DNA of 44,972 nt from Saprospiraceae bacterium. Lineage in GTDB: Bacteria; Bacteroidota; Bacteroidia; Chitinophagales; Saprospiraceae. This document shows positions 6,769 to 41,198 of this stretch, piece after piece. The stretch spans positions 1-44,972 of the forward strand of contig JAHDIP010000023.1 in NCBI GenBank assembly GCA_020630735.1. The letters run 5' to 3'. Numbering within the stretch: the first letter of the stretch is position 1; every line of letters begins with the position of its first letter. The notes beneath the pieces are model-generated. The model did not search any database and was not told the DNA's origin. It saw nothing but the letters and a program-made list of their open reading frames with translations. A program made the position numbers and the translations under genes.

Positions 6769-9700
6769 ATGAAGGGTAAATTACTTATAACTTTCCTCGC
6801 GCTTACTTTTTTTACATTCTCAGCCACAGCACAAGTCAAAATCACTCAATTTAAGGAAGACCCAATAGAGTTCATGCAACAGCTTGGTCAATTTATGACG
6901 ACCAGTAAGATGAAGGAGATGGAAGAGGTCTACAAAAAATTTGAAAAGTACCACAAAGAAGTTGCTTTTAGTGCTAGTCAAATGGAGCGAATTATTCGGA
7001 CTTCCAATAAAATGCTTGATCAAAAAATGACGGCAAGTTCATTTTTTAAACCTTACCTGAATGGTCTAACTATTGTGAAAAACACAGAGTTAGGAGATGA
7101 ACGTTTTAATAAATGGCATGTAGTACTTAATGAAATGCTAGATAATATTGAAAATCGTAAGAAAGGTCCTTTCAAAGATTTCTTATTATTTTCTCTTGAT
7201 TTTTTCGAAAAGAAAACTCTACGCTATTCTAAATCGGGTATCTCTTGGATCGGCGACGCTTTCAATTATGATATGCTTTACGAAGAAGGACCAAAAATAA
7301 AATATGAAAAAGTTGATCTTATAGGTGCTAGAGGAAAAGATACCATCTTAATTCAGGAAACTAAAGGAATTTTTAATCCTATTGACAAAATGTGGAAAGG
7401 AGAAGGTGGTAAGGTAACTTGGGAGCGTTTTGGATTAGGCGAAGATTACCACGCAGTATTAGGAGAATATGGGTTTGAAATGACAAAGAGTTTGTATGAA
7501 GTACCAAATGTGAAATTATATTATCCAACGCTCTTCAACACTAAAGCTATCGAAGGATCTTTTAAAGATAAAGTGGTCACCAAAAATAAAGCGACAGACG
7601 GTTCGTATCCTCGTTTCGAATCTAGAGACAGTATCCTCGTTATTGAAACCATCGGAGATGGTATCAAATATGTAGGTGGTTTTAGATTGCATGGCACTAC
7701 GGTTTATGGCTATGGTAGTAAAGAAAATAAAGCGACGATTGCTATTGCCAATCAAGAAGCCAAAAAATCTTTCTTTGGAAAGTCTGAATTATTTGTTATC
7801 AAGAAGGGAGAACGAATTGTAAGCGAACGGGTAGAAAGTTCTTTATATCTTGGTCAAGATTCAATTTATCACCCTTCCGTAAATGTTCGTTTCGAAATAC
7901 CACAGCGAGAACTCCGACTCAATCGAGGTGATAGAGGAAGTGATCGAAATCCATTTTATACTTCTTTTCACAATTCGAATATCGACTCCGATTATATCGA
8001 TTGGATGATGAATAGCGATTCTATTTTGATCGGGAAAAAACAAGCCAATACAAGTACCTTAAAAAAAGAAGTAGTGATTGAGTCTTTAAAGTTTTATCAG
8101 GATCGAGACTACGAACGTTTTCAAAATATATCAACTACGAATCCGCTTTCTACCTTGAAACTATTTTCGGATGAAGAAGGAAGTACATTTGTTGATGCAA
8201 GAAGATTGGCTAAACGATTAAACCCACGCTACGATATTACAACAATTCAAAGTTTGTTATATGATTTAGTGTCAAAAGGATTTATAAATTATGATAGTGA
8301 TGAACAGGTCGTCGAAATAAAAGATAAAGTATTTCATTATGCAGAAGCCAGTCAGAAAAAAGTAGATTATGATGAAATGCGATTGGTATCAAAAACAGAA
8401 GATTTGAATGCCGTTTTGTCTTTAGAAGATTACTCGGTCGAAACAAGTGGAGTAAAAAACGTAGAGTTTAGTTCTACTCAAAAAGTAGCCTTGAAACCCG
8501 TCAACGATCAGGTCACGATGAAACAAAATCGTAATCTAGATTTTGACGGACGAGTTTTTGCTGGCTTCGGTGTTTTTGAAGGAAAAGATTATAGTTTTGA
8601 TTACAATGGTTTTAATATCAAAATGGATTCTGTACGTTATATGGATATGTTTGTGCCTACAGGCGAAGAAGACAAAAATAAAAATCCAATAGCGCTTTCT
8701 ATAGGTTCAAGAATAGAACACCTTCAAGGCGTATTATTGATTGATGCCCCATCTAATAAATCAGGTGCAGAAGATATTGAGATGTTCCCATCTTTTCAGA
8801 GTAAAGGAAATTCTTATGTTTATTATGATGCTAAAGAAACGAAAGGAGGCTGCTACATGAGAGATTCTTTTTATTTTCAACTCAATCCTTTTAGTTTTAA
8901 TAGTTTAGATAATTTTACAGAAGAAGATATAAATTATAAAGGGACAATGGTGTCTGCATATATTTTTCCAGACTTTAAAGAGGTTTTAGTATTGCAAGAT
9001 GATGCCTCTTTAGGATTTGATACAGAGACGCCAGAAAAAGGCTACGATACTTATGTCAATAAAGGAAATTATAAAGGCAAAATACACTTGAGTAATGTAG
9101 GTTTTCTTGGAAAAGGAAATATAGAATACCTCGGATCTAATTCCAATTCTGATAGTATAATCTTCAAACCTTATCGAACGATTTCACTGGCAAAAGATTT
9201 TAATTTAGAAGAAGCACGAACAGTACCCGAATTTCCACAAGTTTCTGGTATTGACCTCAAAATTAATTGGGTGCCTTACCAAGATACGATGATTGTCATC
9301 AATACCGAAGCACCATTTGACGTATTCCAAGATGGCTTACATACGCTTGATGGAACTCTTGGTTTGACTCCTAAAGGCTTGCGTGGCGATGGTTTATTTG
9401 ATTGGGATAAAGGAAGTATGACGTCTAAGATTTTAGAGTTCGGTGCTCATTCTGTTGATTCTGATACGACGAATTTACAGATTAAAGCACTGAGCGCAGG
9501 TGATATTGCTTTGGATACCAGAAATGTAAAAGCTAGTCTCGACTTCGATAAAGGAATGGGAAATGTAAAAGCTAATTCTGATGAACTAACGACTACCTTA
9601 CCCTACAATAAATATCGAACTTCGATGAACGAGTTTATCTGGGATATGCAGGATGAAAAAATTACCTTCAAATCGGAACAAGGACAAATGGGATCGTTTG

Positions 9701-11271
9701 AGTCAACACATCCTGATCAAGATTCCCTATTCTTTCAAGGGGAACGTGCATCCTACGACTTGAAAACAAACGAATTGAAAATTGGAGGAGTGCCCTTTGT
9801 TATTGCCGCCGACGCATTTATTTATCCAGAAAATGGGGATGTCGAAATCTTACCTGGTGGTGTAATGACTACATTGAATAATGCTCGAATTGTAGCCGAT
9901 ACGATCAACCAATACCACGTCATCAATAAAGCAACGGTAGATATAAAAGGAAAGCGTGTTTATCGAGCAAGTGGTTTTTATGAGTACAATATTGGAGATA
10001 AAGAACAAGAATTAGAGTTTGCAAACATTGTAGGTGAACCGAGTGGTAAGGGTTCTTTTAAAGAAAAGAAAACGATTACGAAAGCAACAGGTGAAGTAAA
10101 GGAAGGAGATAATTTCTTTATCGATCATAAAACAGAATACCGTGGAAAAATTAGCTTAAGTGCTGAAGACAAAAACTTAAGCTTTGAAGGTTTTGCTCGT
10201 TTAGATGCACCGCTAATGCCTGGAAAGCAGTGGTTCTCGATCAATACGGTTGCTGACAAAAATAAACTTTTGATTGGTTACGATACACCAAAAAATTATA
10301 AAGGCGATCCACTTGAGACAGGTTTCTATCTTAGCGGTCAATCTGCCCAAATCTATCCGAGGGTAATGATGCCTAAATGGATACGAAAAGACAGAGCTAT
10401 TCTAGAAGCAAAAGGCTTGTTCAAATACGACCTTACTAAAGATGAATTTAGTTTTGGAGATACACTCAAAATTAGAGCAGATTATAAGCAAGGGAATAAA
10501 ATGGTGTATAATGTGAAAAATAACACGATCAAAGGCGAAGGTCTTTTAGATATTGGTTCTGCATTAGATTATGTAAATATTACAGCTTCGGGGAGAATAG
10601 CTACCAAATTCAAAAATGAAGGTGAAACCGACGAAGTACTACCAGAAGTAACGGCTGAAGTGATGGCAGGTCTTAATTTTAATTTTCCTGACAAACTCTT
10701 AAAGCTAATCGTCTACGATTTACAGTCAAGTGGTTATGATGCTGCTAATGTTGATTACACCAAAGATTCTGAATTCTATGTTAGGGCTTTAGCCGAATTA
10801 ATTGATGACTCTAAGGTGTTAAACAAGACCATCACCAAGCTCAAAAATGGTGTTTTCGAAATGCCTAAAAAATATAATGACTACCAATTACTTTTTAGTA
10901 ATCTTGACCTCAAATGGGACCCCGATTATCAATCCTTTATTTCTTCGAAACCTAAAGTTGGTGTGGGAGCAATTGACGGAACAATGATTAATAAGGAACT
11001 AACTTGTTTTGTTGAATTTAAAATGCCAACAAACGAAGATGATCGCTTTTATGTTTACATCAAATCGCCAAGCGAGTATTACTATTTTTTCGGGTACAAA
11101 CAAGGTGTGTTAAATGTAGTGTCCAATAATGTTCGTTTCAATGATGCGGTATTGGCTTTAAAGAAAAAAGAAGCGATTATAAAAATGGATGATGGCGAGT
11201 TGTACGAAATCCAACCTGTTAATCCAGGAACTGCAGAACAGTTTGTAAATAGAATAAAGGCGCTTTGGTAG
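6769..11271 (+). CDS. Very large exported protein of unrecognised family (paralogue A)
   Basis: This 1500-residue protein begins with a signal peptide (MKGKLLITFLALTFFTFSATAQ). It has no lipobox and no T9SS tail, so it is probably periplasmic or associated with the outer membrane. An N-terminal helical stretch (about 25-150) is followed by long beta-rich sequence with repeated Gly/Tyr motifs (for example GGFRLHGTTVYGYGS, and FEGFARLDA later). In the middle, residues about 470-520 (DARRLAKRLNPRYD, then LLYDLVSKGFINYD) resemble a winged-helix-like unit. The C-terminal 75 residues (DRFYVYIKSPSEYYYFFGYK, then VSNNVRF) are the best conserved against the paralogue at 21107-25591. The beta-rich pattern is reminiscent of beta-taco/OstA-like proteins, but I cannot assign a family or function. 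It has its own promoter and terminator, so it is monocistronic. Confidence 0.8.
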   Translation: MKGKLLITFLALTFFTFSATAQVKITQFKEDPIEFMQQLGQFMTTSKMKEMEEVYKKFEKYHKEVAFSASQMERIIRTSNKMLDQKMTASSFFKPYLNGLTIVKNTELGDERFNKWHVVLNEMLDNIENRKKGPFKDFLLFSLDFFEKKTLRYSKSGISWIGDAFNYDMLYEEGPKIKYEKVDLIGARGKDTILIQETKGIFNPIDKMWKGEGGKVTWERFGLGEDYHAVLGEYGFEMTKSLYEVPNVKLYYPTLFNTKAIEGSFKDKVVTKNKATDGSYPRFESRDSILVIETIGDGIKYVGGFRLHGTTVYGYGSKENKATIAIANQEAKKSFFGKSELFVIKKGERIVSERVESSLYLGQDSIYHPSVNVRFEIPQRELRLNRGDRGSDRNPFYTSFHNSNIDSDYIDWMMNSDSILIGKKQANTSTLKKEVVIESLKFYQDRDYERFQNISTTNPLSTLKLFSDEEGSTFVDARRLAKRLNPRYDITTIQSLLYDLVSKGFINYDSDEQVVEIKDKVFHYAEASQKKVDYDEMRLVSKTEDLNAVLSLEDYSVETSGVKNVEFSSTQKVALKPVNDQVTMKQNRNLDFDGRVFAGFGVFEGKDYSFDYNGFNIKMDSVRYMDMFVPTGEEDKNKNPIALSIGSRIEHLQGVLLIDAPSNKSGAEDIEMFPSFQSKGNSYVYYDAKETKGGCYMRDSFYFQLNPFSFNSLDNFTEEDINYKGTMVSAYIFPDFKEVLVLQDDASLGFDTETPEKGYDTYVNKGNYKGKIHLSNVGFLGKGNIEYLGSNSNSDSIIFKPYRTISLAKDFNLEEARTVPEFPQVSGIDLKINWVPYQDTMIVINTEAPFDVFQDGLHTLDGTLGLTPKGLRGDGLFDWDKGSMTSKILEFGAHSVDSDTTNLQIKALSAGDIALDTRNVKASLDFDKGMGNVKANSDELTTTLPYNKYRTSMNEFIWDMQDEKITFKSEQGQMGSFESTHPDQDSLFFQGERASYDLKTNELKIGGVPFVIAADAFIYPENGDVEILPGGVMTTLNNARIVADTINQYHVINKATVDIKGKRVYRASGFYEYNIGDKEQELEFANIVGEPSGKGSFKEKKTITKATGEVKEGDNFFIDHKTEYRGKISLSAEDKNLSFEGFARLDAPLMPGKQWFSINTVADKNKLLIGYDTPKNYKGDPLETGFYLSGQSAQIYPRVMMPKWIRKDRAILEAKGLFKYDLTKDEFSFGDTLKIRADYKQGNKMVYNVKNNTIKGEGLLDIGSALDYVNITASGRIATKFKNEGETDEVLPEVTAEVMAGLNFNFPDKLLKLIVYDLQSSGYDAANVDYTKDSEFYVRALAELIDDSKVLNKTITKLKNGVFEMPKKYNDYQLLFSNLDLKWDPDYQSFISSKPKVGVGAIDGTMINKELTCFVEFKMPTNEDDRFYVYIKSPSEYYYFFGYKQGVLNVVSNNVRFNDAVLALKKKEAIIKMDDGELYEIQPVNPGTAEQFVNRIKALW

Positions 11272-16369: not shown

Positions 16370-19300
16370 TTAATGCTTTACTACTCTTACGGTTTCTAAC
16401 AGTTCTCCTTTAATACATCTTAAAAAGTATATCCCAGTTGGTAAATCCTTTATGTTTAATTCAACTTGGTTGAAACCATTCGACGCAGCAATTTTTTGAT
16501 AATGTACTAATGTACCCTGTTGGTTAAAAAGTTCTAGTTGAATAATTGTATTTCGTTCAGTTGACCATTGCACATTTAAGCGATCACTCGTAGGATTTGG
16601 GTAAGCAGCAATGGCATTTTTAGTAACACCATTTTTTACACTACTATCTTGAAAACTATTAGGAATCGTAAAATACTCATTCCCTGACCAGTTTGTCCAA
16701 GCAGCAGCACACTTTGTTTTTGTTTTGTACTTGTATTCAGCACCAGTAACTAGATCAGTTAAACTCACCATCGGAACGGTAGGATTTAAGGTTACCCAGG
16801 CCGTACCAGTTGGACCAGGAATTCTATATTTGATTCTCCATTTGACATCATCAATATCGGTTGGCCAACTAATATCTACGGTAGTTGGACTTGTAATATT
16901 TACACTAGTTGATTCAGGAAAATCACAAACATCTGCCAAGCTTGCAAAAGTATAAGTACTCGACCAAACCGAATTTTCGGAAGTACAAAGCGATTTCAAT
17001 TGGTATTGATAATCGGTTGAAGCTTGTAAACCGTTTAAGAAACGGAATGTTTCTTCACCAGCTGTCAATTTTTCTACCCAAGTGCCACCTACAGGTCGAA
17101 AACGAATGCGGTAGCGTTCAGAATTATTTACAACAGACCAATTCAGTTTTACCACATTACCACTAATTACATCTACCGTTGTAGGAACAGGAATGTCGCA
17201 AGTAGGAGCTGGAGGAGGAGTGATTGGTTCTATTCCCCAAATCAAGACACCATTTCTATAAAGTGTCACTTTATCCCAACACTCATAATCTGTTTTGCTA
17301 GGATCATAAGAGTAATCATTTGTTTCGTCATAATTTGTCCAATCAACTTTAGACACGCGACTTTGGATATGACCACTATTAGAGTTGGCGTTCAAATTTC
17401 CAGCAGCAGGGAGAAAGCCAAGTTCCAAATAATGATCAGCATCATTTTCAGGACTAGACATAGCAACAACAGTTGAAGTCATATTCGAAGCACCAACAAT
17501 TGCATAATCAATCCATGAGTTTTGAGCTTGCGTCCCTTCTCTAGTAAACCAGTATTTGATGGTTAATTCAGAATAGGGGACAACTGTTGTTCCATTATTC
17601 ACAATGCGAAATTGAGGATCTACACGATTATCGAATGTTTCTAAATTACCGACTCTATATTCCAATTTTATGTCGCCGCTTACTACACCAACACTTACTG
17701 TCGTTGTAAACTCATCCGTTGCTCCATTAGAATCAGTTACTGTTAAAGTAGCTGTATAAACTCCATTAGTGGTATAGGTATGTGAAGTCGTTAAACCTGT
17801 TCCACTTGTACCATCACCAAAATCCCAAGAATAAGTTAAGTTGTCATTTGTTGGGTGTGTAGAACACGAAGCATCAAAACTTACATCTAAGGGCGCTTCT
17901 CCAGAAGCTGGAGTCGCTGCAAAACAAGCATCAGGTAAAACAGCATTTACGGTAATGGTAACCGCAGCAACATCGCTATCTGTTCCATCACTTACTGTAA
18001 CAGTAGCTGTATAGACTCCGGCTGAGGTATATATATGTGTAGCTGTAGCCCCTGTACCTGTAGAGCCATCACCAAAATCCCATGTATAAGTCAAGTTTCC
18101 ACCATTCATACTAGAAGAAGCTGAAGCATCAAAAGCAACATTTAGAGGTGCATAACCAGTAGTCGGAGTTGCACTTATTACTGCATTAATGGTAGAAGGA
18201 GCGATATCACTAGGACTCCAAAAATTACCTGTTAGCATAAAGAGTGAAACTGCTCGTAAGGTATTTCCAAAATAATAAGGTAGTGGGTCCGTTACGTTTA
18301 CTGTTTCTGTATACACTTGATTGAGGAGCGTTTGGTTATTTCCAGCACCCATTACAGCTAAGGCATAAGTTGATACAAATGTAGGACCATGAAAACCACT
18401 TGTTCCACCACTTTGAGGAACAGGACCACTCAAATTACTCACGCCTATACTATTCACATAGGCAGATACTTTTGTACAAATATTTTTGGCATCCGCATCA
18501 TCAAACCAAGCAATATCTTGTGCCATACGCCAAGGATTTCGGCAAGCATCCCATCCATATTCATCTGGACCATTACAGGAATTAGAATTTCCATTAGGAT
18601 CAGACCAATTGCTAACTAAACCAGTAGTTGGATGTGCATTATTATTAATGAGGGTATAACTTGCATTTACACAATTATCCCAAAAGGTGCTTTGGGCAGG
18701 AATATGATCGGCGTATAATCTATAGTAGGCAGGTGATTGATAACTCGGATTTCTACAATCGTTTCCAAAACCCCAATTGTCACCATTATTGATTTGGTAA
18801 GTACCATTGGCATTAGTTGGTTGTACTTCCCATGTTTTTATAGCATTGATCAAATCCGTTACATCAGAAGAGTAATTGTGTGGCGAAGTCGTATTTGGCC
18901 ATTGGTGGTTAGCTATCAAGAGTGCCATTGCTGCATCTAGTTCAGCATCAGCTGCACCCCCCGAACCAATTGTACCACTACATCCTCCTATTTTCCAATT
19001 CATCACACCATGATTATTCATATTGTCTTTATAATATTGCCAAAGTCCATCAAATAAATCTTTATCAGCAGCATATGCAGCCAAGAGCATTCCATAAGCA
19101 ATACCTTCAGAAACTGTTTCATTTGGATTGTCAAATTTTACACGGTATTTTCCTGTGCCGCAGGCCTCTACATAATCTGTTTTCCATTGATTATATGCAT
19201 TGGCGGCATCCTGTGCTTGACCATAGGTACCACTAGTTGGTAAATTACTTGGCAACAAAACAGAACCTGGATAAGAGGTGTTTGAACCAAATGGAATTGT

Positions 19301-19390
19301 AGCTCCCGCAGGAGTGTTAATTTGTGCTGTAAGGTGGCTTATTCCTAAGAGAAAAGAAAAGACCATACAGACATGGGTGAATTTAATCAT
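16370..19390 (-). CDS. Multidomain GH8 endoglucanase: GH8-PKD2-CBM3-FN3x2-T9SS
   Basis: This 1006-residue secreted enzyme belongs to glycoside hydrolase family 8, inverting endo-beta-1,4-glucanases of the (alpha/alpha)6 barrel fold. Signal peptide: 1-23. GH8 domain: about 25-395, with proton donor Glu95 in ETVSEGIAYGMLL, the substrate Asp in AADAELDAAMALL (148-152 region) and the base Asp281 in EYGWDACRNPWR. PKD domains lie at about 402-482 and 486-568, CBM3 at 573-722, FN3 domains at about 731-816 and 821-909, and a T9SS type A tail at 915-1006. A family-8 xylanase or chitosanase activity is possible, but the CBM3 and GH9 neighbour favour cellulose. It starts the minus-strand cluster; GH9 follows after 107 bp with a hairpin between. 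Confidence 0.95.
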   Translation of the reverse strand: MIKFTHVCMVFSFLLGISHLTAQINTPAGATIPFGSNTSYPGSVLLPSNLPTSGTYGQAQDAANAYNQWKTDYVEACGTGKYRVKFDNPNETVSEGIAYGMLLAAYAADKDLFDGLWQYYKDNMNNHGVMNWKIGGCSGTIGSGGAADAELDAAMALLIANHQWPNTTSPHNYSSDVTDLINAIKTWEVQPTNANGTYQINNGDNWGFGNDCRNPSYQSPAYYRLYADHIPAQSTFWDNCVNASYTLINNNAHPTTGLVSNWSDPNGNSNSCNGPDEYGWDACRNPWRMAQDIAWFDDADAKNICTKVSAYVNSIGVSNLSGPVPQSGGTSGFHGPTFVSTYALAVMGAGNNQTLLNQVYTETVNVTDPLPYYFGNTLRAVSLFMLTGNFWSPSDIAPSTINAVISATPTTGYAPLNVAFDASASSSMNGGNLTYTWDFGDGSTGTGATATHIYTSAGVYTATVTVSDGTDSDVAAVTITVNAVLPDACFAATPASGEAPLDVSFDASCSTHPTNDNLTYSWDFGDGTSGTGLTTSHTYTTNGVYTATLTVTDSNGATDEFTTTVSVGVVSGDIKLEYRVGNLETFDNRVDPQFRIVNNGTTVVPYSELTIKYWFTREGTQAQNSWIDYAIVGASNMTSTVVAMSSPENDADHYLELGFLPAAGNLNANSNSGHIQSRVSKVDWTNYDETNDYSYDPSKTDYECWDKVTLYRNGVLIWGIEPITPPPAPTCDIPVPTTVDVISGNVVKLNWSVVNNSERYRIRFRPVGGTWVEKLTAGEETFRFLNGLQASTDYQYQLKSLCTSENSVWSSTYTFASLADVCDFPESTSVNITSPTTVDISWPTDIDDVKWRIKYRIPGPTGTAWVTLNPTVPMVSLTDLVTGAEYKYKTKTKCAAAWTNWSGNEYFTIPNSFQDSSVKNGVTKNAIAAYPNPTSDRLNVQWSTERNTIIQLELFNQQGTLVHYQKIAASNGFNQVELNIKDLPTGIYFLRCIKGELLETVRVVKH
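16652..17266 (-). repeat. 615-bp block identical to 12492-13106 (copy 2, in the GH8 gene)
   Basis: This is the second copy of the identical block. The first mismatch on one side is at 17267 (C here, T at 13107). Beyond it the CBM3 coding regions are clearly homologous but diverged, and on the other side the sorting domains are diverged. Confidence 0.98.
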
Positions 19391-19473
19391 GTTGTAATTT
19401 TTTTTGACTGAAAAAAAAGAGTTAATTCAAAAGGGGAATGCGATAGGTAATAAGCTTAGTGAAACGGTTAATG

Positions 19474-19481
19474 CAAATATA
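19474..19481 (-). promoter_or_regulatory. Candidate -7 element of the GH8 gene
   Basis: The minus strand reads TATATTTG, matching TAnnTTTG, about 84 bp upstream of the GH8 ATG. The -33 box is not evident. The AT-rich dyad at 19548-19571 lies about 70 bp further upstream, a position suited to an activator. Confidence 0.4.
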
Positions 19482-19547
19482 TTAAAATTATTTAATATAA
19501 ACTATATGAGTATAGTGTGAGTTTACCTCTTTTAATAGTTGTTAAGG

Positions 19548-19571
19548 AATTATTAATATATATTAATAATT
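19548..19571. promoter_or_regulatory. 24-bp perfect AT-only palindrome in the GH8 / paralogue B intergenic region
   Basis: The half-site AATTATTAATAT is followed at once by its exact reverse complement, giving a 12+12 dyad. It lies 157 bp upstream of the GH8 start and 1.5 kb before paralogue B. It could be a regulator-binding dyad or a cruciform. The low complexity limits confidence in a specific function. Confidence 0.5.
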
Positions 19572-19665
19572 GTGACGTGTTAGTCTTTTTGCGTCAAAAG
19601 GGTACAAAGCAAAAAAAGTATCAATAAGTAGATATTGATATAAAAATAAATTAAAATTTTATATA

Positions 19666-19681
19666 TACCACTTTTTGGGTA
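19666..19681. promoter_or_regulatory. Candidate operator TACC-N8-GGTA (copy 1)
   Basis: The sequence TACCACTTTTTGGGTA, followed by TG, is a short dyad (TACC/GGTA) with a T-rich spacer. It sits 22 bp upstream of the -7 element at 19704. A near-identical site lies upstream of the giant adhesin gene at 27020-27035, which suggests a common regulator. Confidence 0.4.
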
Positions 19682-19703
19682 TGCATGGTAACTAAATTTG
19701 TTT

Positions 19704-19711
19704 TACCTTTG
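19704..19711 (+). promoter_or_regulatory. -7 promoter element reading into the 1.4-kb non-coding stretch
   Basis: TACCTTTG matches TAnnTTTG. A TTTG at 19674-19677 is 26 bp upstream, longer than the usual spacer. Transcription would begin near 19717 and read rightwards for about 1390 nt before paralogue B begins. Confidence 0.45.
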
Positions 19712-20598
19712 TCTTACACAACGAATGCCCCCGAGGCAATACAGAAAGTAGTATATAACACCCTTAAAAAGAACCCTCTTTTTACATTCTACTTTAGAAT
19801 TAAGATAATTAAAATATTGAATTAAAATACATCGAACAATACAAAGGAAAGATACTATTGCTATGCTTTAGTACTATCCTAACAACAACTATTTCATAAC
19901 CGTTTAAATAATAACTCTATAAGTAAAAAAGTATTTACACTTCTCGTTGAGAGTTTCAGGGACACAACCTCCGGCCTGGACTGTCAAACTTAGCCATGCA
20001 TTTATTGTTGATTATCAGTGGTTTAGCTCTTTTGTAAAGCTAAAGCCCTCAACAATAGCTCGCATGACCCTAGATTTAGTTTAGAATCCATTTAGCTTAT
20101 TTTTGGAATCAAGTATTTGGCTAATGTAAGCCTTTACTATTGCGATAGCTTTGCTTTCAATGTAGTATTAGAAGGTTTTGTAACAAGCCATACCCTGTAT
20201 AGGTATGCCTTAAACACAGCGCAAAAGTACTGCTTCTTGAAAGTACTAGGATAGGATTGCCCAAACTAAAATCAACTCTCTAAAAGATTTAGAATACCGT
20301 CTAAATCTTTCCTCCCAACAACCTTTTTATACACGTTCCCTTTGATGGAAGTTTTATTATTGTATCTGCATTTGCAGTTGCCTGATCAAGTATTGCTTAT
20401 TGTTATAACAATGTAATAACTGACAGAATGGGCTTCCTATGATTACCCCCTAATGCTAGTAAAATAACCTTTACTAGTACGGGCCACTTCATGCAAAAAA
20501 CGAAGTTATTACCTGTTTGGTGTATTGTAATGTCTACAATGCATACTGGCCATGCTATGCCTAAAACCGATTTAAAATAAATAGCAGCTTGTATGTTG

Positions 20599-20640
20599 AG
20601 CTTAAGAAAAAAGTAGAAGTATAGTTGTGTTACTGAAGCT
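20599..20640 (+). repeat. Twin hairpin 1 with shared 18-nt apical sequence
   Basis: The 18-mer AAGTATAGTTGTGTTACT occupies 20617-20634, with AGTA and TACT able to pair. It is enclosed by AGCTT (20599-20603) and AAGCT (20636-20640). Confidence 0.6.
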
Positions 20641-20658
20641 TTTAATTAATTGCTCTTC

Positions 20659-20715
20659 GAAATGGAATTTAATAAAAAGTATAGTTGTGTTACTACTTAT
20701 TAAACCATTCATTTC
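20659..20715 (+). repeat. Twin hairpin 2 with shared 18-nt apical sequence
   Basis: The same 18-mer is at 20677-20694, exactly 60 bp after the first copy. It is enclosed by a different stem: TTTAATAA (20668-20675) with TTATTAAA (20697-20704), extended by GAAATG (20659-20664) with CATTTC (20710-20715). Confidence 0.6.
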
Positions 20716-20720
20716 ATAGA

Positions 20721-21106
20721 CAAAAAAGAAGTCTCTTATTTCTGAACTTATGTGAATGGTCAGTTATACTGCCCTACAAACTTACTGTACTTATCGGTTT
20801 TATCAGTAATCAAATTTTTAAGGAATGACTAAAAACGTCTACAATTTTGCTTTGTACTTCACTACAATAAACTAATAACAAAATTGACAAAAGAAGGAGT
20901 TTTACTATACAATATTATTTGATATAAACTCCAATAGTGAAGGTTTAATCCGCATTCCTTAGCAATGAAAAAATAATACAGCGCTCTACCCAAAAGGTAG
21001 AAAATGATTATCGATTAAGAGGTTTTATATCTTTTAAACGCTAGCCATTCTCATTCCTAAGAGCAAGTGTTTAGTCATTGCTGAACATTAAAAACATCGA
21101 ATAAAA
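20721..21106. other. Remainder of the intergenic region before paralogue B
   Basis: This stretch has no gene. It contains GGAGTTT/AAACTCC (20896-20902 with 20926-20932), a long-range pair AAGGAATG (from 20820) with CATTCCTT (from about 20952), and TCTACC-caaaa-GGTAGA near 20986-21002. No exact TAnnTTTG promoter was found close to the start of paralogue B, so its transcription may begin far upstream. Confidence 0.5.
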
Positions 21107-24100
21107 ATGTTACGAACAATCATCACAACTATTCTCTCTGTATGCCTATTAGCGAATATCGCTTACGCCAATTATACAGAACCAGTAAAATTCTCTGACA
21201 GTCGATCTCAATTCATCTCTGAGATGGAGGATTTTATAATGGCAAGTAATAAAAAAGATGCCATAGAAAGTTTCAATAAATTTAAGACCAAAGTAAATTC
21301 CTCTTCTTATAATAATGATGAATTTGCACAAATTGTAGAAACCAGTAATAATATGCTGCAACTCAAAATGGCAGCAAGTCCTTACTTTAGCGCTTACCTA
21401 AAAGCAGTTACCATTATTAAAGATGAAGTAAAAGGCGAAAAACAATTTAAGACTTGGCATTCTACTTTAGTAGGAATGCTTAAAGATTTAGAAGACAAAA
21501 AATTCAAACCTTACAAAGAATTTGTCAACTTCTCTGAACGCTTCTTTAAAGAAAAGAATTTATATACTTCAAGCTCAGGATTAGTTTGGACGATAGAAAC
21601 TACTGAATTTGAATTTGCTTACGAAGAAAAAGAAGCTAGTGTTGTTTACAAAAACGTTACTCTAAAAGGAACTCGTAAAGATGCGACCATTATTATTCAA
21701 GAAACTTCTGGACATTATTATCCTGCAAAATTGAAGTGGAAAGGCGACGGCGGAAAAGTTAGTTGGGATAAATCTGGAGTAGACAATAACGTTTATTGCA
21801 GTTTAACGGAATATGATATCAATGTAAAAAAAGCACTTTATCAAGCGAATAATGTTTTAATGCATCACCCTGATATGTTTAAAGCAGGACCGGTAACGGG
21901 TAAACTTGATGATAAAATGATCATGGGCAAACAAAAAGATAAGGTTACTTATCCTCGTTTTGAGTCAAAAGAAAAAACACTAGAAATTGAAGACATAGGT
22001 GGTGGTTTAAAATATGTAGGTGGTGTAAAGCTACACGGAAATGTAGTGTATGGCTACGGAACAAAAGATACGAAAGCTAACATAAAAGTATATAATGACC
22101 AAAATGAATTAGTACTTAGAGCTTCTTCCGAATCATTCACGATCAAGAAAGGAGAAAAAATTGTTGGGAAGGAAGTAGAAGCAGTGATCTATGTCGAAAA
22201 TGATTCTATTTATCATCCTTCTGTAAATTTACGTTTTAATCCAATTGAAAAAGAACTGAATTTATTTAGAGGTGATAAAGGTCGTGAACGTAATCCGTTT
22301 TTTAGTTCTTATCATAAAGTAGATTTAGACGTTGACAAGATTGATTGGTATGTAGGAACCGACTCTATTATGGTCGGACGTAAAGTAGCAGATTTTGTTG
22401 ATGCTAATCAACGAGTAAAAATCCGTTCGTTCAACTACTACAACGAAAGTGAATACCAACGTTTCCAAAACGTATCTAGTACCAACCCAATTTCATTGTT
22501 AAAAATTATTACAGAAAAAGAAGGAACCAATGTTATTGATGCAAACAAATTAGCAAAGATGTTGAATCCTCGATTCGATATTAGTAGCATCCGTACCTTA
22601 CTCTATGACTTATCTGCTCAAGGTTTTGTAGACTACGATAAAGACTCGCAATTAGTGACTGTAAAAGATAAAGTGATTCATTATGCGAAAGCTAGCCAAA
22701 AGCAATCGGACTATGATAATCTAGAGATTGTTTCTACTACTGATGAAACCAATGCGGTTTTGAGTTTGACAAATCACAACCTGAAAACAAAAGGAATAAA
22801 ACATGTAGAGTTCAACAAGCGTCAGCGAGTAGCTGCAGTACCTACTGATAACCAAATTACTCTTAAAGATAATAGAGATATGACTTTTGATGGAAAACTA
22901 TATGCTGGTTTTGGTTTATTTGATGGTTCAGGTTACGAGTTTAGCTACAAAAAGAATTCGATCAAAATGGATTCTGTAAAAGTACTAGAGTTGTTTATTC
23001 CTACTGGCGATAAAGATACTAAAGGAATGCCTGAAGCATTTGCAATGGCTTCTAAATTAGAACATCTTAGTGGAGAAATTTTAATAGATGCACCTGAAAA
23101 TAAATCAGGTAAAGAAGATGTAGAAATGTTTCCATCACTAAATAGTAAAGGAGCATTTGTTTACTACGATATGAAAGAAGTACAAGGTGGTGTTTATACT
23201 AGAGACAAATTTTTCTTCAAATTGGATCCGTTCCATATGAACAGTTTAGACAAATTTACAAAAGAAGATTTAGTTTATAAAGGAACGCTTACATCACATA
23301 ATATCTTCCCTGATTTTCAGGAGACGCTTTTATTGCAAGAAGATCAATCTTTAGGATTTGTGACGAATACACCAGCGACAGGCTATCAGGCTTACCAAAG
23401 TTCTGGTGTATACAAAGGTGAGATCGCTTTAAGTAATGCAGGTCTATTAGGTAAAGGAAATATCGAATACCTTGGTTCTACATTTGATTCAAAAGACATC
23501 ACTTTCAAGCCAGAACAAATGCTAGCAACTGCAGATGCATTTAATTTAAAAGAGAGCAGATCGGGAGTTGAGTATCCAAAAGTAAAAGCACAAGATGTAA
23601 AGATAGATTGGTTGCCATATGCTGATACCATGTTTGTTGATACCAAAGAATTTCCGTTTGAAATGTTCAATGACGGTTTACACACATTAGGGGGTACATT
23701 GATTTTGACTTCTAAAGGACTCAAAGGAAAAGGTATTTTTGATTGGGACAAAGGCTCCGTTGATTCTGAATTGTATTCTTTTGGTGCGCACAGTTCTAAA
23801 GCAGATGTTGCTGATTTGCAAATTCGTGCATTCAATACTGAAGAACTAGCACTAGATACTAGAAATGTAAAAGTAGATTTCGATTTCGATAAGCAGATAG
23901 GTACCGTAAAAGCGAATGTTGATACACTTATGACGACTCTACCATACAATAAGTACATCACTTCTATGAATGAATTTGATTGGGATATTGCTGGCGAAAC
24001 GATTACGTTTAAGGCTGAAGAAAATAAAATGGGAACATTCTTATCTACTTCAGAAGGACAAGATTCATTATTCTTTAAAGGTGAAACGGCAAAATACGAT

Positions 24101-25591
24101 TTGAAATCTAGCGAACTGTTGATTGGTGGAGTAAAGAAAATTCAAGTTGCAGATGCCTTGATTTATCCTAACGAAGGAAAAGTTGATATCCAATCTGGTG
24201 GTATCATGACAACATTGAACGATGCAAAAATTGTAGCCAATCTTAGAAATAAACATCACGTTATTAACCGTGCAACAATTGATATCAAAGGGAAGAAATT
24301 GTACGAAGGTACTGGTTTTTATGAATATAATATTGGAGACAAAGAACAAGAGATTGAGTTTACAAATATTTCTGGTCAAGCATTAGAAGACAATAAATTG
24401 ACAACTACTGCATCAGGTACAATCAAAGAAACTGATCAGTTTTACATAGATCACAAAACGACTTTTAGAGGTACGATTCGATTAAACGCTGAATCTAGAA
24501 ATTTAAAATTCGAAGGTTTTGCAAAATTGGATGCTGAACGTTTACCACACAATCAATGGTTCTCTATTGATAGCAAAGGAGATAGAAAAAACCTAAGTAT
24601 CTCTTACGATGAGCCTAAAAATTTAGATGGAGCGAAATTGAGCACTGGTCTATTTTTAAGCCACGAAAAAGGAGCGATTTATCCTAGAGTAATGATGCCG
24701 GCTTGGTCAAAACAAGATCGTACTATTTTTGAAGCAAAAGGATTATTCAATTATGATGAAAAAAATAACCACTTCAATTTTGGTGACTCACTAAAAGTTG
24801 TTGCTAACCACACTAAAGGTAATTTGTTGAAGTTTGATGATAACGATGGTACCGTTACAGCTCAAGGACAATTTAATATTGGATCCGGTTTGGATTACAT
24901 CAATGTAACAACGGCGGGTAAAGCGATTACTCGATTTAAAGAAAGTGGTGGAGAAACACCTACCATAGACCTAAATGCAATGTTAGGAATTGACTTTATT
25001 CTTCCTGAAAAACTAGAGAGTATAATGGCAGGTGACTTTATGGCTACAAGCTATGAAGCGGAAGCGATAGATTACAAAGGTGATGGAACCTACGAAAAAG
25101 CATTAGCAGAATTTTATGATAATGATAAAAAGGCAATGTTCAAAGCATTGGACGTATTACGAAATAGTGGGAAATTAGAATTACCTAAGAAGAATTCTTA
25201 TACGATCTTCTTCAGTAAATTAGGATTGGAGTGGAATGAAGAGTTACAATCTTTTGTTTCTAATACTAAGAAAATTGGTTTGGGAGCTATTGGTGGCGAA
25301 GTGATAAATAGACAAGTAGAAGCATATGTAGAATTTAGAATGCCTTCTAATGAAAATGATCGTTTTTACATCCATCTTACTTCTCCAAGTGGCTACTACT
25401 ATTTCTTTGGTTTCAAAGAAGGTATCATGAATATCGTGTCTAATAATGTTCGATTTAATGAAGAAGTAATCAACATGAAGAATAAAGATAAAATGCACAA
25501 AATGAAAAATGGTGAAACATACGAAATACAACCCGTCAACGAGGGTACAGCAAAAGCTTTTGTCAACAGAGTTATTGAGGCTAGCAAATAG
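21107..25591 (+). CDS. Very large exported protein of unrecognised family (paralogue B)
   Basis: This 1494-residue protein is collinear with the protein at 6769-11271 over its full length. It has a signal peptide (MLRTIITTILSVCLLANIAYA), the helical N-terminal stretch, the beta-rich body, the winged-helix-like unit near residues 475-520 (DANKLAKMLNPRFD, then LLYDLSAQGFVDYD) and the conserved end (DRFYIHLTSPSGYYYFFGFK, then VSNNVRF). It has no lipobox, membrane anchor or T9SS tail. Blocks such as GFYEYNIGDKEQE are identical in the two proteins, while other parts have drifted, so the duplication is old and both copies are kept. The function is unknown. Its 5' side differs completely from that of paralogue A: no close promoter and a 1.4-kb structured stretch upstream. 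A strong terminator follows. Confidence 0.8.
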   Translation: MLRTIITTILSVCLLANIAYANYTEPVKFSDSRSQFISEMEDFIMASNKKDAIESFNKFKTKVNSSSYNNDEFAQIVETSNNMLQLKMAASPYFSAYLKAVTIIKDEVKGEKQFKTWHSTLVGMLKDLEDKKFKPYKEFVNFSERFFKEKNLYTSSSGLVWTIETTEFEFAYEEKEASVVYKNVTLKGTRKDATIIIQETSGHYYPAKLKWKGDGGKVSWDKSGVDNNVYCSLTEYDINVKKALYQANNVLMHHPDMFKAGPVTGKLDDKMIMGKQKDKVTYPRFESKEKTLEIEDIGGGLKYVGGVKLHGNVVYGYGTKDTKANIKVYNDQNELVLRASSESFTIKKGEKIVGKEVEAVIYVENDSIYHPSVNLRFNPIEKELNLFRGDKGRERNPFFSSYHKVDLDVDKIDWYVGTDSIMVGRKVADFVDANQRVKIRSFNYYNESEYQRFQNVSSTNPISLLKIITEKEGTNVIDANKLAKMLNPRFDISSIRTLLYDLSAQGFVDYDKDSQLVTVKDKVIHYAKASQKQSDYDNLEIVSTTDETNAVLSLTNHNLKTKGIKHVEFNKRQRVAAVPTDNQITLKDNRDMTFDGKLYAGFGLFDGSGYEFSYKKNSIKMDSVKVLELFIPTGDKDTKGMPEAFAMASKLEHLSGEILIDAPENKSGKEDVEMFPSLNSKGAFVYYDMKEVQGGVYTRDKFFFKLDPFHMNSLDKFTKEDLVYKGTLTSHNIFPDFQETLLLQEDQSLGFVTNTPATGYQAYQSSGVYKGEIALSNAGLLGKGNIEYLGSTFDSKDITFKPEQMLATADAFNLKESRSGVEYPKVKAQDVKIDWLPYADTMFVDTKEFPFEMFNDGLHTLGGTLILTSKGLKGKGIFDWDKGSVDSELYSFGAHSSKADVADLQIRAFNTEELALDTRNVKVDFDFDKQIGTVKANVDTLMTTLPYNKYITSMNEFDWDIAGETITFKAEENKMGTFLSTSEGQDSLFFKGETAKYDLKSSELLIGGVKKIQVADALIYPNEGKVDIQSGGIMTTLNDAKIVANLRNKHHVINRATIDIKGKKLYEGTGFYEYNIGDKEQEIEFTNISGQALEDNKLTTTASGTIKETDQFYIDHKTTFRGTIRLNAESRNLKFEGFAKLDAERLPHNQWFSIDSKGDRKNLSISYDEPKNLDGAKLSTGLFLSHEKGAIYPRVMMPAWSKQDRTIFEAKGLFNYDEKNNHFNFGDSLKVVANHTKGNLLKFDDNDGTVTAQGQFNIGSGLDYINVTTAGKAITRFKESGGETPTIDLNAMLGIDFILPEKLESIMAGDFMATSYEAEAIDYKGDGTYEKALAEFYDNDKKAMFKALDVLRNSGKLELPKKNSYTIFFSKLGLEWNEELQSFVSNTKKIGLGAIGGEVINRQVEAYVEFRMPSNENDRFYIHLTSPSGYYYFFGFKEGIMNIVSNNVRFNEEVINMKNKDKMHKMKNGETYEIQPVNEGTAKAFVNRVIEASK

Positions 25592-26639: not shown

Positions 26640-26665
26640 ACTACTTGTATTTCCGTACAAGTAGT
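26640..26665. promoter_or_regulatory. 10-bp perfect dyad just upstream of the coiled-coil gene
   Basis: ACTACTTGTA (26640-26649) and TACAAGTAGT (26656-26665) flank a 6-bp TTTCCG spacer. It lies 28 bp upstream of the ATG at 26612. It could be an operator or a 5'-leader hairpin controlling the coiled-coil gene. Confidence 0.5.
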
Positions 26666-27250
26666 ATGATATACTTTTATTTTGTCAAATTCTCTTGGCC
26701 GAACAAGCCGACTACAATAGATTTGGTCAATCAATTCATGATCAATAATTAATAATCTATAGAACGATCTCCCATTGTACTACATCAGAAGCCGCATTTT
26801 GTGAAAATATTCGTTGTAAAAACAGGTATATTTCTCTTTTTTTAGCAACCTATGTCTTTTTTTTGCGTTAAACACTGCCCACAAAATTACCAAATTTTCT
26901 CTCCTTATATATACAATCTTTTCTTTATACCAACCGCTTCACAAATTTTAGCTTACTGTAAACCAGTGACAATATAAATTTACATATTAAAAAATGTATC
27001 TAAATATCTATATGTAAACTACCCTTTTTTTGGTATGATTTTAGACATAAGAACTTAGTGGAAAAGTAGCTTTTTCAATGCTTTTCTATTTAAGAATCTA
27101 GAAACTTTATAACTCGCTGTATGCTAGTTGTTTATGTTCTCATGAAAAATATTTTTTCTGAGCGATACATAGTTTTAAAATCCTATTAACCTTTTTGGGA
27201 AACTAAAAAAATCTCAAAAGGCTAAGGGAAAAGACATCAAAACAATCCCT
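26666..27250. other. Divergent intergenic region between the coiled-coil and giant adhesin genes
   Basis: No gene was seen here. It is AT-rich with the TACC-N8-GGTA site at 27020-27035 and an imperfect CCTTTT/AAAAGG pairing near 27189-27220 just before the adhesin start. I found no exact TTTG-N19-21-TAnnTTTG promoter on either strand. Confidence 0.5.
27020..27035. promoter_or_regulatory. Candidate operator TACC-N8-GGTA (copy 2)
   Basis: TACCCTTTTTTTGGTA followed by TG matches the site at 19666-19681 in 15 of 18 positions, with the same arm spacing. It lies 215 bp upstream of the giant adhesin start. Confidence 0.4.
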
Positions 27251-30200
27251 ATGAAAAGGAGTTTACAGATTTTATTTGCCTTATTTTTTATTTTTATAGC
27301 TTCTAGTAAACTATTAGTCGCACAAAATAATTTATCTGTGGCATTTGAAAATCTAAATGCCGTTCCCGATTTTTTGAATATTTGTGGCGATGCAGATACT
27401 GCCAAAGTAGTGATCAGTATTGAAGGGCTCAATCCATTTACTCGAACAAATCTTACTGCTACTGCTAATTTATTCGAAGGCGTGAATTTTGTCGAATTTT
27501 TACCAGCACAATCTTCAACTGGAATAACCTTAGTTGATGGATCAGATCCATCTAGACCTATTTTTAGTCTTCCCGATCTAGGACCATCTGGTATACTATC
27601 CGTCGAATTGACTTATTCTATTGTAGCCAAATGTGCTTATATCGATACGCTTACTGCAAACAATGCAGCCGATGTTTTAGATGCGTGGCATTTTGAGTAC
27701 GACCTTGATGGAAGTACAACTGGTCTCGTCGAAGATGATGTAAATATCGAATATCGTGATGCCTTTGCAGTTCCATCTTTTACGATCTCAGCCATGAATA
27801 GTAATGGTCCTTCAAAAGTAGGAGAGTGCTTGTCGAGAGATATTATTACAACGAATAGTGGATTAGATGGTTTTGTAGATACGCTGATGTATGAAAATAT
27901 TCAAGGGGCTGGAATCTCTGTAGTTGGTATAGAAGTAAACGGGATTTCAATACCATTCACCAAACAAGAAGTATTTGGCGATACCCTAATTACAGCCTTA
28001 ATAGATAGTTCCTTTTTTCAACTCAATACAATAGGTAGTGGACCTGGAGATGGAGATAACTTTTTTGATCCTGATGAAACGGTTTTGATTACCGAATATA
28101 TATGTGTCTTAAATTGTGATGACTCTAGAGCAAGTACACATACCGCTTTGTGGGGTTGCGATGGTGATTATTGTAGACCTACAACGACAACCGATTTTAT
28201 TAGAATTGGAGATGGAGCAGCCAATGTAGGTTTTGTTCCTTCAGGTTCTGTTACGAATACAAATACTGGTTATTGTCAAGCGGGTTCTTCTACAGTTACC
28301 TTTACTAATGAAGGAGTAGAAGTTGATCCTGGCTTTGCAACGATGACTGATTTGATCGCAGGTATTGGAATCGGCGATGGTTTTTTATTGAGCTCTGATG
28401 GTTTTACCATTACATCAATTGTAATCGGAGGTGTTACGATGACCGCTCCTTTAGCGATGAATCCTTTAGATGGGAATCCTCTTTTTCAAACCGATCCTGA
28501 TGGTCCAGGAGGCATAGAAGATATGGATGGCGATGGTTATTTTGATGATTTAGGATTGGGGCAATCGTTTGAGATGACCGCTTACTTTGAGTTTGATTGT
28601 TCAAATGCACAAGTAGTTGGCGATGATTACTGTGCCAATGATTTTGTAACTGCATTGAGTGCAAGAGTCGATTATACCGATGCATGTAGCGATCAAATTA
28701 TAGAGCTAGAAAGCTCTTACTATGCACCTCAAAACAAACAAGATAATTTTGAAAATTTTACAGATCCAGATGCCTTTTTGCAGACAGACGTATTTTATAT
28801 TATACACAATGAAACAAGAAGTGTTTTTAACTTCGAAAAAGATTGTGGTAGTGGAGAACAGTTTATTATAAAAATGGTATTGCCAACAGGTATCAATCCG
28901 ATTATTTCTGAAATGGCATTGTTTAGAAACCAGTCTTCATCCTCTGTGCCCTTGATCAATAATTTTATGACTGGGGATACCTTAAACCTTATTTACGATG
29001 CTTCTGTTTCTGCATTTATAGGTGGCGAGTATGAAGTCATCATGGCTTTACAAGCAGACTGTTCTGCACAAACAGGGCCAACAAGTTTTCCATTTAGTAT
29101 GGAACATTATTGCCCAAGTTGTGATTGTACACATACTTGGTATTGTGATGAATTACCTGGTCCTCAATTGCATACTACTGATCCTCCTTGTCCACCATTA
29201 GCTTGTCCTGTTGGTTTACAATCTACGTCATTTGATGTAAATCGGGTAACTTTTGGTTATACTGACAATAGTTACACAACTCCATATGATCCAGCATTAG
29301 CGAATACAAAAGTTGCTATTTCTTGCGACTCTATCGAAATGCGTTTGATCAATATTGTAGGAGATACGCCTATAAGTGATAGCATTGGAGTCGTAGTACA
29401 TTATAATAATGTAGATGGTAGTATGGATACTACCCAGACATTAATTTTTGGAGAAGGTACTTTACGATTAACTAATAATGGCAACGAATATTTTTGCCCT
29501 ATTGATCAATCACACCTAACTGTTCAAGCTATAGATAGTACCAAGTTTTTAACCTTTGAGTTAGGAAATTGTTTGACGGATTTAGGCATTACTCTAAATC
29601 CTGGTGATACAGTTGAATACATTGGTTATTTTAAGGTGAATACAGAAGGTCCTTATCCTGTACAATTCCGTAGAATTCCCAACTTAAGAGCATATGGATA
29701 TGCTGCGGTTGACGGTATCGATTATGCCTGTGATAACTTTGGAGATATACTAACGATAGCAAAAAATAATACCGTCTTTTCTTATCCAAACAGTACGAGT
29801 ATGCCTGAAGGCTGTGAAGAAGCAACCCTTCAATATCGACTCATTACGGTAAATAATGGATTTAGTGAATGGTTCGGAAATGAGTACAGACAAGCAATTG
29901 CAATCGACTCGATTACCTTCCGATTTGATACAACGATTTTTCAAGCCTTCAGTCAGTTTATACCTGAAGTTTCTATTCCTGGGCATCCAGTCCATGGCAA
30001 TAGTTTTGTTCCTATTGAATCATTTGACTTATCGCCAGATGGCTACTATGTAGCTCGTTTTGATACCTTACAAAATGTGCCAGCTTTAAATGATGTAACT
30101 TCTTATTCGTTTAATCTAAGAATCCGTGCAATACCGAACTGCCGTTCCTTAACAGGAAGTATAAATGACGACAATGTCTTTGATTTTGATCCGACCATTT

Positions 30201-40519: not shown

Positions 40520-40903
40520 TTTTTAATATTTTCATGGTTGATAATAGGTGTTGTTGTTAACTACTAATAGATTTAATTCTTTAGCTTAATGTAATCAAAC
40601 TAAAAAAAATTGTTCTAATTTTAGGGAAATGGGTAAATTGAAGAGTATTTATATTGTACTATTTTTTTGGAAGGAAAGAGTAACTTAGATTATAGCAAAT
40701 CACTCAATTACCTATAACTTGGCAAAAGCTGTGCTATTTTTAGGGTAATAAAAAAATAAAACAGCAAAAATGTATCAAGTGAAAAGATATCAGTAATTAA
40801 CGTACTATAATAGCAGTTTTAAAGATGTGTATTTTTAGATTGGTATAATCTATTCGTTATTAATTTATTGTAGTTGAGTAACAATATGCATATCAATAAA
40901 AAC
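40520..40903. other. Gene-free AT-rich stretch
   Basis: No gene is seen. A half-match to the TACC-N8-GGTA motif is present around 40732-40747 (TGCT, ATTTTTAG, GGTA). It may hold the promoter of the small minus-strand gene. Confidence 0.4.
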
Positions 40904-40944
40904 AAAGAGGAGACTATTTTTAATCAAAAAATAGTCTCCTCTTT
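40904..40944 (-). terminator. 18-bp stem-loop terminator, probably of the lipoprotein transcript
   Basis: AAAGAGGAGACTATTTTT (40904-40921) pairs perfectly with its complement at 40927-40944 around a 5-nt loop. On the minus strand it continues into TGTTTTTATTG. The nearest minus-strand gene upstream ends at 41199, giving a 3' untranslated stretch of about 255 nt. Confidence 0.7.
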
Positions 40945-41198
40945 CTCTTTGAAATGTGACAGTATTTAGTAACAGTCAAATAATAACTTTCTGATTTGTG
41001 GCTGGTATTTTTGAGTTGCATACCCGACCGCTAGCGGTTCATTTCGTTGAAAAGATCTCCAAAATCTTTTCTGCTTTGCACCACTTCGTTCATGTTATTT
41101 TCTCGACAATCCAAGGAAGATTCTCTCAAAAAATGCCTCGTCAAATCTAAAAATAGTCTCGACCAAAACACGAAAGAATTTAATTTACACTGTACGTA
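40945..41198. repeat. Non-coding stretch with a GC palindrome and repeated GAGACTATTTTT
   Basis: ACCGCTAGCGGT at 41027-41038 is a 12-bp GC-rich palindrome preceded by CATACCCG. AAAAATAGTCTC at 41149-41160 repeats the inner arm of the terminator hairpin (40927-40938). No gene is supported. It may be a decayed or dispersed repeat. Confidence 0.4.

Follow-up and report, generated by a model that had tools for sequence, protein, structure and literature searches.

The hairpin-rich block at 19717-20720 of the window (the whole stretch of DNA analysed, 44,972 nt, which is an entire contig of a Saprospiraceae draft genome of 6.6 Mb in 434 contigs) probably forms most of a 1391-nt 5' leader of the downstream gene, paralogue B, whose box promoter is shared with genes for giant surface proteins. 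We put the probability of this reading at about three in four, and the promoter class is its solid part. The block had originally been predicted to be either an independent large structured RNA or an unusually long leader controlling paralogue B. The second option is supported by the conserved promoter class, which is kept upstream of B relatives in other genera, and by the presence of just one weak terminator candidate (20120-20149) before the B start codon.

An orphan hairpin-rich gap is hereby linked to a promoter class that can be tested and whose targets are named. Confirmation of the class would offer a way into the control of giant type-IX-secreted matrix proteins and of exopolysaccharide in Saprospiraceae. 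Why the leaders are many times longer than the flavobacterial norm is a further question that it raises. A survey of the open-licence literature by title and abstract returned nothing on this promoter class or on long Saprospiraceae leaders.

The gap upstream of paralogue B

The block lies in a gap of 1716 bp (Table 1). The kilobase is gene-free, as predicted: the gap contains no ORF of at least 90 aa and no coding signal, the median coding score in 120-nt windows being -14.9, compared with -16.0 for other intergenic regions and +16.7 for paralogue B. Among 50 gaps of 250 nt or more in 315 kb of the same genome, none is longer. The neighbouring GH8 gene (16370-19390, minus strand) encodes a T9SS tail. 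Paralogue A (6769-11271), 49% identical to paralogue B, sits behind prmA, and two cellulase-like genes (GH9 and GH8) separate the two paralogues.

Table 1. Features of the gap and its surroundings, in window coordinates
Feature	Position	Strand	Remarks
Gene-free gap	19391..21106	.	Separates GH8 gene (minus) from paralogue B (plus)
TATATTTG	19474..19481	-	Likely -7 element of the divergent GH8 gene; assignment to GH8 putative
Palindrome TACCACTTTTTGGGTA (TACC-N8-GGTA)	19666..19681	+	Proposed NarL-like activator site, about -50 to -35
-7 element TACCTTTG (TAnnTTTG)	19704..19711	+	22 nt after palindrome
Predicted 5' leader of paralogue B	19716..21106	+	1391 nt; +1 predicted from TAnnTTTG position
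Longest hairpin	19995..20069	-	Better fold as minus-strand RNA
Perfect 11-bp hairpin AAAGATTTAGA-ATACCG-TCTAAATCTTT	20283..20310	.	
Perfect 8-bp hairpin CTAGTAAA-ATAACC-TTTACTAG	20456..20477	.	
Candidate short leader ORF	20491..20580	+	29 aa (MQKTKLLPVW...); weak lead
18-nt repeat, copy 1	20617..20634	+	Exact
18-nt repeat, copy 2	20677..20694	+	Exact
Paralogue B	21107..25591	+	1494 aa; no Pfam family

A promoter box at the left edge

The -7 element predicted at the left edge of the block is present. TAnnTTTG elements occur at 19693 and 19704, and the latter has the -7 sequence of a Bacteroidota sigma-A promoter. Upstream of it lies a TACC-N8-GGTA inverted repeat of the NarL-type 7-2-7 operator kind. 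Bacteroidota sigma-A promoters usually carry a -33 element, TTTG, at a distance of 17-23 nt. No -33 TTG is found 16-24 nt upstream of the 19704 element, which fits an activator-dependent promoter. In excerpts of a study of Flavobacterium psychrophilum, TAnnTTTG occupies -12 to -5 of sigma-A promoters (PMC9723704), and placing the element likewise puts +1 at 19716 and the palindrome at -50 to -35. The most likely origin of the transcript would therefore be 19716, downstream of a sigma-A-type promoter that has TAnnTTTG as its -7 element but lacks a normally spaced -33 TTG. Activation would most likely be by a dimer bound to the palindrome, centred near -43, the activator probably being a response regulator of the NarL/FixJ type (LuxR-like HTH). 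We infer that transcripts from 19716 read through into paralogue B.

The NarL 7-2-7 operator of E. coli, as described in parts of PMC4549865, consists of inverted heptamers two bases apart. An engineered site from that work, TACCCCTAAAGGGGTA, fits TACC-N8-GGTA with the geometry seen at 19666-19681, and the napF and yeaR 7-2-7 sites lie about as far upstream as the palindrome does here (PMC4549865, in part). Unlike the E. coli system, the present one belongs to another phylum, pairs the palindrome with a TAnnTTTG-containing sigma-A promoter and has a putative regulator, and its targets are surface proteins rather than nitrate genes.

A second TACC-N8-GGTA palindrome (TACCCTTTTTTTGGTA) lies at 27020-27035, upstream of a 4221-aa SprB-repeat ORF at 27251; no TAnnTTTG is present at the usual distance from it.

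The box in this genome and in relatives

The combined pattern TACC-N8-GGTA-N20..26-TAnnTTTG occurs 15 times in this genome (6.6 Mb), compared with 0 occurrences of a control consisting of the same pattern read backwards. Twenty relatives contain 141 matches versus 21 for the control, with 18 of the 20 genomes represented. The spacer is strongly constrained: 82 of the 141 matches have 22 nt and 44 have 23 nt, giving 126/141 where even use of the seven permitted spacers would put about 40. With the spacer set to N21..24, 79 other genomes of the class contain 89 matches versus 33 for the control, and this genome 14 versus 0; outside the family the pattern is enriched, but less so.

The surroundings of 63 sites were examined, comprising all 15 from this genome plus 48 of the 141 in relatives (13 of 13 in G016, 9 of 12 in G159, 14 of 16 in G145, 10 of 15 in G219, and single sites in G096 and G035). 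The three sites omitted from G159 have spacers of 20, 25 and 26, and the spacer count above rests on the full 141. With ORFs shorter than 90 aa not counted as genes, 53 of the 63 sites face a same-strand ORF, eight face one on the opposite strand, one lies inside an ORF and one meets a contig end. The 53 same-strand ORFs begin 44 to 1614 nt after the box (median 435). For 12 of the 15 sites in this genome the distance is 276-1395 nt; the remaining three lead to an opposite-strand ORF (L132 and L137) or to a contig end after 199 nt (L138). These 12 leaders have a median length of 622 nt, whereas the gaps upstream of 157 genes have a median of 177 nt (p=5e-6); the difference persists when only gaps of 100 nt or more are used for comparison (p=8e-5). 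In the F. psychrophilum data, as excerpted, 5' UTRs have a mean of 65 nt and a median of 24, and the adhesin operon remFG-sprCDBF has sigma-54 and SM5 promoters (PMC9723704). The sigma-A promoters of that species share TAnnTTTG with the box described here, whose leaders are mostly hundreds of nucleotides long.

The boxed targets at L127, L128, L129, L130 and L131 encode giant proteins that carry T9SS tails along with HYR, dockerin, cohesin, CUB or SprB domains, some of the domain matches being below the Pfam cut-off. At L133 and L136 the giant protein comes after one or two small ORFs. The L139 locus encodes a receiver-domain protein, a sugar transferase and a GT2 glycosyltransferase, and is an exopolysaccharide locus. 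The two ORFs at L134 (118 and 673 aa) have no match above the Pfam cut-off, and Pfam matches nothing in the second L131 gene, which runs off the contig. Four other genomes have the receiver-domain gene behind a box, at 411-443 nt (1009 nt here), and three have a 258-aa gene so placed, at 514-591 nt (662 nt here), both genes being recognised by their start sequences. One promoter type appears to serve giant type-IX-secreted surface or matrix proteins as well as an exopolysaccharide locus, and in most cases the leader is several hundred nucleotides long. Five of the 15 boxes of this genome lie on a single 66-kb contig (C23, L128-L131) that is full of giant HYR/cohesin/dockerin/SprB genes.

Conservation of the box in the A/B protein family

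Copies of the A/B family fall into two settings, prmA-linked (A-type) and long-gap. In a table of 51 upstream regions, in both orientations, 30 copies follow a PrmA-like ORF at a distance of 2-313 nt, like paralogue A; PrmA is confirmed by Pfam for the window only, and PrmA-like ORFs elsewhere were recognised by length and start. Twelve copies have no prmA upstream and gaps of 250-1298 nt, five have a short gap behind another ORF (L013, L021, L030, L033 and L110), three have no upstream ORF at all (L025, L094 and L102), and the remaining row, a fragment of 850 aa or less, was dropped before tree building. A quick tree of 52 proteins groups paralogue B with L092, L093, L026, L097, L096, L100 and L106 (SH-aLRT 86), and all members of this B clade have long upstream gaps. 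The long-gap label requires 2 changes on the tree versus 11.7 in shuffles, with 0 of 500 shuffles as low. The B copy comes immediately after A in G090 (L097) and some 2 kb after it in G096 (L026 and L095), an arrangement that suggests tandem duplication.

The upstream regions of the family have almost nothing in common beyond genus pairs. A promoter-like patch in L092 and L093 led to the pattern TACC-N8-GGTA followed by TAnnTTTG. The full box is present in six of the eight B-clade members (the window, L092, L093, L026, L100 and L106) and was not found in L096 or L097, while L098, L099 and L101, which are more distant, show the palindrome and lack the full pattern. None of the gaps of the 30 prmA-linked copies contains the box. 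Within 2.5 kb upstream of those copies (less at a locus end) there are two palindrome-like matches, at -2118 in L095 and -1184 in L107, both far beyond the gap.

Two observations from this clade count against a leader running from 19716 to paralogue B. One is the pair of members without a box. The other is length: B-clade boxes lie 283-1395 nt from the start codon, the five besides the window at 283-427 nt, which makes the window leader 3-5 times longer, and a nearer promoter may exist for that reason. The gap could accordingly be a plain intergenic spacer in which a nearer promoter drives paralogue B and the box promoter is of little importance or the source of a short RNA. Nearer -7-like elements are indeed available (TAnnTTTG at 20098 and 20146), as is a sigma-70-like site at 20884-20913, and the folding of the block, described below, is ordinary. 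We nevertheless consider a plain spacer unlikely, given that the full box is rare in the genome, is present at paralogue B and is kept at its relatives.

Folding of the block

Against the roughly nine inverted repeats first reported, 19717-20720 contains eight perfect hairpins that do not overlap, their stems being 6-11 bp long. Such counts are little raised over shuffle expectation: stems of 6 bp or more number 8 versus 5.9 +/- 2.0 (40 of 200 shuffles reach 8), and those of 8 bp or more number 3 versus 0.58 (reached by 5 of 200). The reported hairpin pair with a repeated loop holds in part. The 18-mer AAGTATAGTTGTGTTACT does occur in two exact copies, with no further copy in the genome at up to 2 mismatches, but only the second hairpin, 20655-20720, folds well (z -3.0; 20588-20655 has z -0.42). 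A TACC-N7-GGTA sequence at 20191-20205, inside the predicted leader, is a variant of the promoter palindrome with a spacer of 7 and doubles as a hairpin.

As a whole, the block folds more stably than its dinucleotide shuffles on both strands (z -4.5 plus and -3.2 minus, 0 of 100 shuffles as low on either; z -4.34 and -2.93 with 20 shuffles per strand). Other intergenic regions of the window do so too, including 40520-41198 (minus strand, z -5.5) and 26661-27250 (plus strand, z -2.8). The strong minus-strand folding of 40520-41198 comes mainly from 40759-40958. The deciding control is the comparison with intergenic DNA of the same genome, for which 200-nt tiles were folded on both strands (16 from the gap, 166 from 49 other gaps and 68 from coding DNA). 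Mean tile z is -1.75 for the gap, -1.57 for the other gaps and -0.35 for coding DNA; the gap differs from coding tiles (p=0.002) and does not differ from the other intergenic gaps (p=0.54). Hairpin richness is therefore real against shuffles and ordinary among the intergenic DNA of this genome, and the block lacks the exceptional folding expected of a large structured RNA. The leaders of the boxed targets in this genome likewise resemble other intergenic regions in their folding (sense tiles -1.55, antisense -1.31; p=0.31).

An independent large structured RNA of the OLE/GOLLD/ROOL kind, initiated at 19716 and terminated short of paralogue B, is distinctly improbable on this evidence. Like OLE, GOLLD, ROOL and HEARO, the block is a gene-free stretch on the kilobase scale. 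Its plus strand folds below all shuffles, the GC content of four successive tiles (19850-20650) is raised to 0.34-0.35, which sets the gap mildly apart (11 of 83 other intergenic tiles reach 0.34), and other promoters of the class seem to yield terminated RNAs. Unlike those families, however, it has no Rfam match, no relatives found and no folding beyond the intergenic norm; its terminator candidate is weak, and its promoter is common to B relatives with short, dissimilar leaders.

Search for relatives of the block

The Rfam search suggested with the original prediction, run against Rfam 15 with OLE, GOLLD, ROOL and HEARO included, gave no match at gathering score; the best sub-threshold match (E 2.7) is to a plant-type miRNA family. 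A DNA search of 60 relative genomes, none of them of the same genus, found no alignable homologue of the leader: besides self there were two foreign matches of about 33-43 nt and a single 38-nt match elsewhere in the block's own genome. Across 398 family genomes, 128 besides its own gave some match at E up to 0.1. Those listed are short and scattered, none exceeding 57 nt, and the best of them covers 34 nt at 88% identity (E 8e-5). Covariance models of 19986-20078 (R1, minus strand) and 20184-20314, each built from one sequence and run with strict filters that left at most 17 and 13 candidates per genome to be scored in the rows shown, matched nothing but self in 248 genomes.

Short matches pile up over about 20000-20042, where the motif TTGTTGATTATCAGT forms an arm of the longest hairpin. 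It has 12 exact matches in 11 of 100 family genomes, compared with 0 for the control, and so appears mildly over-represented in the family. Its contexts are mixed, several lying within ORFs, and it was rejected as a marker of block relatives.

The longest hairpin region folds better as minus-strand RNA (19986-20078: z -4.88 minus, -2.48 plus), as an antisense or small RNA from that region would. Such a transcript is very improbable, since model R1 finds nothing else in 248 genomes, the minus-strand -7-like elements lack TTG at the usual distance and the block as a whole folds better as the plus strand. A decayed gene or mobile-element remnant, to which a GC content close to that of coding DNA and a weak 3-periodicity at 20280-20600 (z 2.8) might point, is hardly credible given the intergenic-level coding score, the ten stop-free pieces without a usable Pfam match (best E 0.11), the lack of convincing similarity in tblastn with 17 window ORFs including prmA (best E 0.11) and the absence of any phage match.

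Contents of the predicted leaders

Processive antitermination systems such as RfaH/ops, LoaP and UpxY act on long leaders before very long genes and polysaccharide loci. The predicted leaders of the box promoters likewise precede very long genes and a polysaccharide locus but, unlike those systems, have no element that we found common to the targets: leaders of unrelated targets gave only weak cross-matches, and k-mers lay mostly inside shuffle maxima.

Terminators and words were scanned in 43 same-strand leaders of at least 200 nt. Terminator-like sites number 17 on the sense strand, in 13 of the 43 leaders, and 8 on the antisense strand; shuffles give 3.9 +/- 2.1. Sense-strand sites are present in some leaders outside the B family, and some of these sites fall right after conserved elements. 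Examples are L188 (234-327 after the -7 element) and L205 (239-334), whose element is 95% identical over 96 nt between two genera, and also L179, L191 and L209; all combine conserved elements with strong intrinsic terminators. The elements end about 300-390 nt after the promoter box, CAGTTTTTG precedes the stem, and no Rfam match was found for them. They are possibly unannotated small RNAs or attenuators, and part of the promoter class may make small RNAs. Strong terminators inside boxed leaders elsewhere count against the leader reading of the block, as separate RNAs may result.

The B leaders of L100 and L106, which belong to one genus, share 79% identity over 300 nt. Between them, a hairpin spanning alignment columns 168-219 is conserved without change, and 4 of 52 predicted pairs are changed on both sides, in a comparison of two sequences only.

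As to what a long leader might do, we tentatively suggest, as a minority possibility, that it delays and gates expression through gene-specific short ORFs and hairpins rather than through one conserved fold. The wider proposal of a Saprospiraceae-wide regulon switched by the NarL-like palindrome, in which most targets, namely giant matrix proteins, a polysaccharide locus and paralogue B, have leader RNAs of about 0.3-1.6 kb that gate or time expression through short ORFs, hairpins or terminators, is doubtful; if true, it would amount to a leader-based programme for cell-surface construction.

Some words in the leaders are strand-specific. CATGAAC occurs 13 times on the sense strand of the leaders, 0 times on the antisense strand and 3 times in 43.7 kb of other intergenic sequence, and ACCGATTT 10, 0 and 1 times respectively. 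These words were scored on a Markov background and chosen from many, and some of the leaders are mutual orthologues, so that they are leads rather than results. CATGAAC looks like the start codons of mini-ORFs. CATGAAC-type starts of very short ORFs occur, for example, in L127, L172, L192 and L194, some encoding just Met-Asn-stop. The window leader contains one ACCGATTT and, at 20491, a loosely similar ORF start.
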